Assembly: GCF_038006045.1 (NCBI RefSeq) | Contig: NZ_JBBOUK010000001.1 | Coordinates: 2,583,001 to 2,647,000, forward strand | DNA length: 64,000 bases | DNA from: Exiguobacterium sp. FSL W8-0210 | GTDB taxonomy: Bacteria; Bacillota; Bacilli; Exiguobacteriales; Exiguobacteriaceae | Direction: 5' to 3' | Shown: in pieces, positions 53,642 to 54,950 of the stretch | Position numbering within the stretch: the first letter of the stretch is position 1 | Layout: each line of letters begins with the position of its first letter | The notes under the pieces: model-generated | The model's input: the letters and a program-made list of their open reading frames with translations, nothing else | The model's database searches: none | What the model was told of the DNA's origin: nothing | Translations under genes and position numbers: made by a program

Positions 53642-54517
53642 ATGGATCAATTCATGTCACCGCAAATCGGCTTAGCATTACGCCGACTGCGAAAGAAACA
53701 TAATCTGACACAAAAAGATTTATCAAACGGAATTTGCAGTCAAGCAGAGATCAGTAAGATCGAGAGTGATACGCATTCGCCGACAGTCGAATTATTGTAT
53801 GCTTTATCAAAGCGATTACAAGTTCCATTGTCAGCGTTCTTAGACCCTACAAATCAACAAACGAATTTACGAACGATTGACGAAGAATTACTTTATAAAT
53901 TTAGAAATCAGGACTTTGAAGGCATTTATAAACAAAGTAAAGTCGCACTATCTAACGCTAATACTTCATTTGAACATTCATTATTATATAAATATTATTT
54001 CTTCATTTGCTCGTATAGACTAGGAAAAATCGATTACCGTACATGTATAGTAGAGCTCCAAAATCTATCTAATGAATACTCCACTTCATATTATTCACCG
54101 AATATGCTAATTCGAATTAAATCTGCGATTGCGAATCTGTATTCTGAAAATAGAAGTTTTCAATACAGTATCAATGTTTATGAAGAAATATTAAATCTCA
54201 ACTTTGACAATGATGATTTAATCGTCGATCGAATTAGAATTTCGTATAATTTTTCAAAGATTCTTTTAGAATTTCAAAAACATAATCGAGCACTTACTAT
54301 AATTGATGAAGCAATTGAAACAAGCTTAAAATTTAAAGATATGTCGTTACTCGGACAATTGTACTCTCAAAGAGCTGCTTGTTTAGATAAATTAGGTGCT
54401 CCATCACAAGAAATTATTAGAACTTTTGATAAATCATATTTTTTGTTTGAATTATTAGGAATGAAAGAGTATCAAAAAATTATTAAAACGATGAAAGAAG
54501 AATATCTAGCCAAATAG
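53642..54517 (+). CDS. PlcR-like quorum-sensing regulator (RRNPP family)
   Basis: This is a 291-residue regulator. Residues 8-63 are an HTH_3 domain (IGLALRRLRKKHNLTQKDLS, SQAEISKIESDTHSPTVE). The remainder is TPR-like helical text very close in pattern to Bacillus cereus PlcR: KIDYRTCIVELQNL, KSAIANLYSENRSFQYSINV and DMSLLGQLYSQRAACLDKLG follow PlcR blocks in order. PlcR binds the re-imported PapR peptide on its TPR face and then activates promoters. Facing it, 23 bases away, is a gene for a secreted repeat peptide with LPLEY. The ATG at 53642 follows GGACGAGGAGCCG; the longer frame to 53561 would run through the promoter. Confidence 0.88.
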   Translation: MDQFMSPQIGLALRRLRKKHNLTQKDLSNGICSQAEISKIESDTHSPTVELLYALSKRLQVPLSAFLDPTNQQTNLRTIDEELLYKFRNQDFEGIYKQSKVALSNANTSFEHSLLYKYYFFICSYRLGKIDYRTCIVELQNLSNEYSTSYYSPNMLIRIKSAIANLYSENRSFQYSINVYEEILNLNFDNDDLIVDRIRISYNFSKILLEFQKHNRALTIIDEAIETSLKFKDMSLLGQLYSQRAACLDKLGAPSQEIIRTFDKSYFLFELLGMKEYQKIIKTMKEEYLAK

Positions 54518-54540
54518 CTGTATCAATATACGAATTTCAA

Positions 54541-54861
54541 TTAAGCTCGTTTTACTGCGTACTCAAGTGGAATTCCATCAATAGCCACATCTGTTTTTTG
54601 TGAATACTCTAAAGGCAATCCTTTGATCGCTACATCGAAAGCTGGAGCATACTCAAGTGGTAATCCTTTGATCGCTAAGTCTGTTCTTTCTGAATACTCG
54701 AGTGGCAGTCCTTTAATCGCTAGGTCTGTTCTTTCTGAGTACTCGAGTGGCAATCCTTTGATCGCTACATTAGTTTCAAGCTGACTAGCAACGCCAGCAC
54801 CAACAGTAACAGACAATGATAAAGCTGCAATCGCTAAACCTAATTTCTTTTTCAAGTTCAT
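54541..54861 (-). CDS. Secreted pheromone propeptide with five 15-residue repeats (PapR-like)
   Basis: This 106-residue protein begins with a signal peptide (MNLKKKLGLAIAALSLSVTV, to about residue 26). From residue 32 it is exactly five units of 15 residues, such as LAIKGLPLEYSERTD. Four units carry AIKGLPLEY and the last AIDGIPLEY. The core LPLEY resembles the LPFEF/LPFEY end of PapR, the PlcR pheromone, and the convergent neighbour is a PlcR-like regulator. PapR has one copy; here one precursor could release five. The ribosome binding site is AGGAGG. The repeat has a DNA period of 45 bases. Export by Sec and later cleavage are inferred. Confidence 0.85.
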   Translation of the reverse strand: MNLKKKLGLAIAALSLSVTVGAGVASQLETNVAIKGLPLEYSERTDLAIKGLPLEYSERTDLAIKGLPLEYAPAFDVAIKGLPLEYSQKTDVAIDGIPLEYAVKRA

Positions 54862-54903
54862 TTAAATAACCTCCTATTATTTTTCGTATGGCTTCGTAAC
54901 AAC

Positions 54904-54950
54904 ATCATATAACCTTAGACCCCCTCTAAATATTCGAATACGAATATTTA
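54904..54950 (-). promoter_or_regulatory. Promoter and palindromic operator of the pheromone gene
   Basis: A perfect 10-bp inverted repeat with a 4-base spacer (TAAATATTCG / CGAATATTTA) lies at 54927-54950. On the minus strand a -10-like TATGAT lies at 54904-54909, exactly 17 bases from the palindrome, which therefore occupies the -35 position. This is the layout expected where an activator replaces a weak -35. Confidence 0.65.

Follow-up and report, generated by a model that had tools for sequence, protein, structure and literature searches.

The locus described here is very probably an autoinducing quorum-sensing switch of the PlcR kind within the RRNPP group, with polymorphic pherotypes and a regulon of two promoters, common to the genus Exiguobacterium (probability roughly 0.83). 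This reading is drawn from comparative sequence analysis of 19 Exiguobacterium species and 19 sister-genus genomes, and starts from two convergent genes in the window, i.e. the whole 64,000-nucleotide stretch of Exiguobacterium sp. FSL W8-0210 that was analysed:

53642..54517, + strand: PlcR-like regulator (receptor), 291 aa
53666..53836, + strand: HTH domain, approximately residues 9-65, from the alignment and the HTH identity matrix, with recognition helix CSQAEISKIE
53849..54514, + strand: TPR (peptide-binding) domain, residues 70-291, from Pfam RNPP_C, residue mapping and the published contacts (PMC6568020)
54541..54861, - strand: secreted multi-copy pheromone precursor, 106 aa, from its translation

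Profile, sequence and fold comparisons all confirm the regulator as a genuine relative of PlcR, as the original prediction had held from its HTH and TPR text. Pfam assigns HTH_3 (48 bits) and RNPP_C (133 bits, cut-off 26.5), and a phmmer search against solved structures returned PlcR as the top relative (2qfc, E = 2.8e-36, residues 7-281). When the AF2 model built from 19 orthologues (pLDDT 86.7) was compared by VIA-align, three PlcR entries came first with Z = 22.9 (PlcR-PapR), 22.2 and 21.6, versus 16.7 for the best non-PlcR chain. The length of 291 aa lies in the 250-500 aa range of RRNPP(A) receptors, and the expected N-terminal HTH and RNPP-type TPR domains are both present. In PlcR, the glutamate of PapR is contacted by Lys89, Gln237 and Tyr275 (PMC6568020). 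Residue mapping equates the last two with Gln239 and Tyr277 of the regulator, both invariant across the 19 species, which favours the switch model; conversely, the equivalent of Lys89 is variable (Q/S/K/G/L/N), which weighs against a switch of the PlcR type. The equivalent of Lys87 is R in 14/19 species. Over the whole alignment the HTH residues are near-invariant and the TPR domains widely divergent. The regulator of Exiguobacterium sp. Leaf196 is 99% identical to that of the window, and the scan of genome contigs returned, besides this protein, a single weak unrelated match. A weak relative (23% identity) was also seen in one phage record.

The precursor gene faces the regulator across a 23-nt gap, and its parts are as follows:

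54870-54875, - strand: AGGAGG ribosome-binding site of the precursor
54769..54861, - strand: signal peptide and leader, residues 1-31, MNLKKK and a hydrophobic stretch, kept in all species and Sec-like by sequence alone
54724..54768, - strand: pheromone unit 1 (VAIKGLPLEYSERTD)
54679..54723, - strand: pheromone unit 2 (LAIKGLPLEYSERTD)
54634..54678, - strand: pheromone unit 3 (LAIKGLPLEYAPAFD)
54589..54633, - strand: pheromone unit 4 (VAIKGLPLEYSQKTD)
54544..54588, - strand: pheromone unit 5, with a variant core (VAIDGIPLEYAVKRA)

After the leader, exactly five units of 15 aa reach to the last codon, four with the core LPLEY and one with IPLEY. Both open reading frames, their strands, the convergent gap and the repeat count thus agree with the original prediction, which had further set the five copies against the single pheromone copy of PapR and proposed a greater signal output per transcript. 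PapR does carry one copy per precursor, and the repeats in the window are real, but the arrangement is not new in kind: multi-copy propeptides with up to six copies have been published for the PlcR, NprR, AimR and Rap subfamilies (PMC9765709), and tandem Phr precursors are cut into several active pheromones (PMC11343458). A gain in signal per transcript, which five copies might give, would be less distinctive than other features of this locus.

Complete precursors across the genus contain 2-9 copies of a unit of 13-15 aa. The core motif [LI]PxE[FYH] is found in 19/19 species (LPLEY, IPLEY, LPPEY, LPPEH, LPYEY, IPFEF, LPFEF, LPAEF and LPTEF), with Pro and Glu kept; the presence of the Glu in nearly every unit counts in favour of the switch model, and a single degenerate unit, PPKH, occurs in species G004. 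Unit number and core differ between species, and for most species the similarity of units within one gene is greater than that of cores between species, which suggests repeat homogenisation. Every core, the last included, is followed by further residues, so that a second cut would be needed, unlike in PapR; this was counted against the model. The precursor exceeds 100 aa in 12 of the 17 complete cases, as does that of the window with its 106 aa. In its strict mode RRNPP_detector applies an upper propeptide limit of 100 aa (PMC10075063), a filter that may explain why such loci were overlooked. Two draft assemblies (G013 and G007, loci L015 and L021) break within the pheromone repeats, and copy number is therefore unreliable in short-read genomes of this genus. 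A Pfam match of the window precursor (54541-54861) to CHB_HEX_C reaches the cut-off (30 bits, 25/76 positions, over the signal peptide and unit 1); it is regarded as spurious, and database entries are likely to carry it as a misannotation.

The co-occurrence of the two genes, proposed as a check on the original prediction, was complete: regulator and repeat precursor are found together in 19/19 Exiguobacterium species, and the regulator is missing from 19/19 sister-genus genomes at E ≤ 1e-15. The two genes are adjacent and convergent in all 17 loci uncut by contig ends, the gap between them ranging from -9 to 31 nt. The occurrence of a repeat protein with matching N terminus and promoter in 19/19 species indicates that the locus is not a product of chance. 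A LOG-family (lysine-decarboxylase-like) gene lies beside the precursor in 18/19 species, and was not found as a neighbour in G006. A search at the level of the order added no further genus, since the order is represented in the collection by this family alone.

The promoter of the precursor carries a conserved palindrome:

54931..54946, - strand: operator TATTCG-TATT-CGAATA, a 6-4-6 palindrome identical in the 19 species and the sole exact copy in the window
54904..54909, - strand: putative -10 hexamer TATGAT, 21 nt from the operator and invariant in the 19 species

The sequence TATTCGTATTCGAATA stands, unchanged, upstream of every precursor. In whole-genome searches exact TATTCG-N4-CGAATA sites number two per genome in 17/19 genus members, which supports the switch model, and three in the other 2; the reversed-control motif gave no sites in these 19 genomes, and the background amounted to 2 stray sites in total across the 19 sister-genus genomes. 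The third copies (G015 and G016, the latter inside an open reading frame) were dismissed as chance because 2/19 sister genomes also carry one stray site each. Allowing two mismatches gave 12 sites in the window's own genome (the two exact ones included) versus 5 for the reversed control, and these were left unused. Both conserved sites lie 21 nt from the -10 element in 19/19 species, TATGAT at the precursor and TACGCT at the second site, and this too speaks for the model. The spacers are otherwise dissimilar between the two promoters, and the pattern T-A-x-G-x-T, common to both -10 elements, is invariant. Judged from the -10 elements, the 21-nt spacing would put the operator centre near -41.5 relative to the predicted start site, where class II activators usually bind. 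The PlcR box, TATGNAN4TNCATA (PMC2464732), is itself not matched; the 6-4-6 geometry is kept but the half-site is TATTCG versus TATGNA, a point against the model. The original prediction had proposed a test of peptide response at both flanking promoters. Of the two, the precursor promoter alone carries the operator; the regulator's own promoter has a plain conserved TATAAT.

The second conserved operator always lies upstream of one gene, which codes for a protein of 265-266 aa beginning with M(L/Q)NYKVNVY or similar:

L095:7275-8072, - strand in L095 (G000:C1:1751277-1752074): 265-aa protein, second operator target, operator 21 nt from the -10

All 19 genus members carry this gene, as against 0/19 sister-genus genomes, in line with the switch model. 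When 399 class-level genomes from 145 genera, those of the family included, were searched with a profile, no other convincing match emerged, nor was any relative above threshold found in Pfam, NCBIfam, PHROG or the PDB sequences. The structural model (pLDDT 84.5) returned a PepSY-like YpeB C-domain (Z = 6.5) and ACT-like folds (Z of about 5.5), both weak partial matches below the level of trust. No signal peptide is apparent in the target, and the output is thus probably cytosolic. Its C-terminal part is very conserved. A ComK-like output, suggested by eye from this C terminus, was set aside: none of the four sequence collections gave a ComK match, and ComK was unlisted in the fold search, which does not exclude it.

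Besides the window regulator, every genus member has 1-6 extra PlcR-like copies, some of them broken by stop codons (G002, G012). The genome of the window has five of them in tandem:

L010:6464-11030 (G000:C1:1768490-1773002): five tandem PlcR-like paralogues without propeptides, approximately 16 kb from the second operator site

The 53 paralogue genes of the clusters examined have a common recognition helix, CSQAE(I/L)SK(I/V)E, almost identical to that of the window regulator. In these clusters no operator copy was found, nor any recognisable propeptide in a scan by simple pattern. The paralogues may be orphan receptors at the same two promoters, and this possibility, counted against the regulatory model, is where that model is least certain. 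The stronger proposal, that the clustered paralogues act at the two operators in place of the window regulator or alongside it, the regulon being common to several receptors, would account for so many genes with one helix and without operator or detected propeptide of their own, and for at least one paralogue in each genus member. It is nevertheless rather unlikely, as the window regulator is the neighbour of the precursor operator, overall identity between it and the paralogues is no more than about 30-40%, and the two operator sites are constant where the size of the cluster is not.

The switch model with the window regulator as receptor is further supported by the way in which signal and receptor vary together. 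The variation is concentrated in one segment:

53820..54840, approximate edges: pherotype cassette, comprising the TPR-coding part and the precursor coding region, from sliding DNA identity, identity matrices and Mantel tests

Species pairs with flanks 97-99% identical can be about 45% identical within this cassette of about 1 kb. Between G000 and G012, DNA identity stays at 97-99% until the HTH ends, falls to 35-66% over the TPR part and precursor, and is back at 99% inside the precursor's first codons; other species pairs display a similar pattern. At the protein level, the same two species are 99% identical in the target and 94% in the LOG-family neighbour versus 45% in the TPR domain, and their cores differ. 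Conversely, G002 and G016 belong to different clades (target 75% identical), and both have LPYEY and TPR domains that are 69% identical. Identity matrices show that TPR identity tracks the pheromone and not the species. The distance between 8-mer peptides correlates with TPR distance (r = 0.77, p = 0.0002), which favours the switch model; the correlation is unchanged when LOG-family or target distance is held constant, and peptide distance correlates with neither of these (near zero). Likewise, the species clade is rejected by the TPR data (p-AU 3e-42), and each cross-clade pherotype group tested is rejected by the target data (p-AU 0.002 or less).

Pherotypes common to several clades could also reflect recent cross-clade gene transfer instead of old, selected allele lineages. 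The joining of species of different clades with high support in TPR trees would fit such transfer, as would the pair G012-G008, with a four-fold-site identity of 61% in the TPR region versus 25-42% in the other regions compared. In most same-pherotype cross-clade pairs, however, four-fold-site TPR identity is 25-43%, a level similarly low to that of the neighbour and target genes, which suggests alleles of roughly the same age as the clades, although these sites are near saturation and the test is a weak one. Recent transfer is regarded as rather unlikely, and recombination at the cassette edges combined with long-lived alleles appears the simplest reading of this among-species sample. A broader proposal, for and against which we see equal chances, is that the locus serves self-recognition throughout the genus: the cassette would consist of old trans-species alleles recombining between a fixed HTH and a fixed operator and promoter, so that 'languages' are swapped and the dedicated output, two promoters leading to an undescribed protein family, needs no rewiring, while orphan receptors with the same helix may listen in.

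The proposed mechanism would run as follows. The precursor would be secreted and each unit cut on both sides, giving peptides of the [LI]PxE[FYH] type, here approximately IKGLPLEY. These would enter the cell through an oligopeptide permease and settle in the TPR groove of the regulator encoded opposite; in the genome, 8 matches to the oligopeptide-binding protein family were counted in favour of the model. The peptide-loaded regulator would then bind TATTCG-N4-CGAATA near -41.5 and activate the precursor's own promoter, in a presumed positive feedback, and that of the 265-aa protein. Secretion, cutting, Opp import, TPR binding and activation of the PapR type are family knowledge (PMC2464732, PMC6568020). 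The TPR domain and precursor would evolve and recombine as one specificity cassette, with the HTH, operators and output fixed. Several pherotypes recur across species, and selection on pherotype is a conceivable reason for their diversification. That the regulator instead represses and is relieved by peptide is improbable: the operator is placed where RNA polymerase at the -35 could be blocked, and some RRNPP regulators do repress, but the operator takes the place of a -35 box, where a class II activator would sit and always 21 nt from -10 hexamers that deviate from consensus (TACGCT), and the PlcR family activates (PMC2464732). Least probable is a secreted non-signal (e.g. a surface or antimicrobial peptide) regulated incidentally by its neighbour, since, compatible as repeats on their own are with other secreted proteins, the core fits the PapR motif, covaries with the receptor TPR and not with other genes, and recurs as a single C-terminal copy in plasmid relatives. 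In combination, the grouping with PlcR, the co-occurrence, the IPFEH and LPFEH peptides of these plasmid relatives and the covariation of core and TPR domain support the signalling role that had originally been proposed.

No account of this system in Exiguobacterium was met in the literature searched, subscription papers being mostly outside reach. As far as can be told, the new elements are a genus-wide system, a two-site operator with fixed class II spacing, a dedicated output gene, and a cassette of TPR domain and precursor behind a fixed HTH. That pherotypes are diverse is well established; it is harder to study how a cytoplasmic receptor can switch to another signal and keep its targets. 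In this locus the break between HTH and TPR domain and the convergent layout, which puts the TPR-coding end beside the pheromone gene, mean that one recombination block changes both. With its receptor-ligand pairs from 19 species, the genus offers a ready-made matrix of specificities that can be read out at just two promoters. The system is also a clear case for asking what a quorum signal controls, as the conserved regulon appears to consist of the signal and one uncharacterised protein.

The closest known relatives in kind include two plasmid systems:

L169:3369-3617: single-copy PapR-like peptide ending NIDIPFEH, Planococcus maritimus, convergent with a PlcR-like regulator and with a perfect PlcR box
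L171:3361-3510: single-copy PapR-like peptide ending TELPFEH, Exiguobacterium sp. Helios, convergent with a PlcR-like regulator

On the former plasmid a true PlcR box, TATGTA-N4-TACATA, is followed after 21 nt by TATATT and then by the convergent gene of the secreted peptide, an arrangement that favours the switch model. Both have the convergent layout and the core (IPFEH or LPFEH) in common with the chromosomal locus, and differ in the one C-terminal copy and in regulators that are only about 31-32% identical. Two further plasmids were observed: that of Planococcus glaciei has a perfect PlcR-box match, TATGCA-GTTA-TGCATA (L168:3439-3454), near a PlcR-like regulator and no clear peptide gene, and pE73 of Exiguobacterium alkaliphilum has a small secreted-looking open reading frame ending SDLPYEV (L172:2311-2442, - strand), divergent from a PlcR-like regulator.

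With PlcR/PapR of the B. cereus group, the Exiguobacterium system has in common the receptor architecture and fold, two of the three glutamate-holding residues, the PxE(F/Y) core, the 6-4-6 palindrome, a precursor under the receptor's operator and pherotype groups. It differs in that papR lies directly downstream of its receptor gene and co-directional with it, whereas the Exiguobacterium precursor gene is convergent, with 2-9 copies and a core that is not C-terminal and varies more widely at its third residue. The half-site differs likewise (TATGNA versus TATTCG), the PlcR box stands at various distances ahead of the -35 (PMC2464732) in contrast to the fixed -41.5, and 45 controlled genes compare with two conserved sites. 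PlcRa/PapRa of B. cereus is similar in that the receptor is a paralogue of PlcR and the precursor, of 93 aa, has the heptapeptide CSIPYEY in its interior, but a single heptapeptide is proposed, papRa is upstream of the receptor and the output is abrB2 (PMC3519770). Tandem RRNPPA propeptides such as Phr of phages 3T and 105 likewise have several identical or variant copies and cuts on two sides (PMC11343458; PMC9765709). Phr3T and Phr105, however, serve phage Rap receptors, whereas the Exiguobacterium receptor is a chromosomal PlcR-type transcription factor with genus-wide variation in unit number and pherotype. In agr, ComQXPA and ComC/ComD, signal and receptor sensing domain are linked and co-diverge between conserved flanks. 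The receptors in those systems are membrane histidine kinases; that of Exiguobacterium is a cytoplasmic transcription factor with a fixed HTH and a variable TPR domain.
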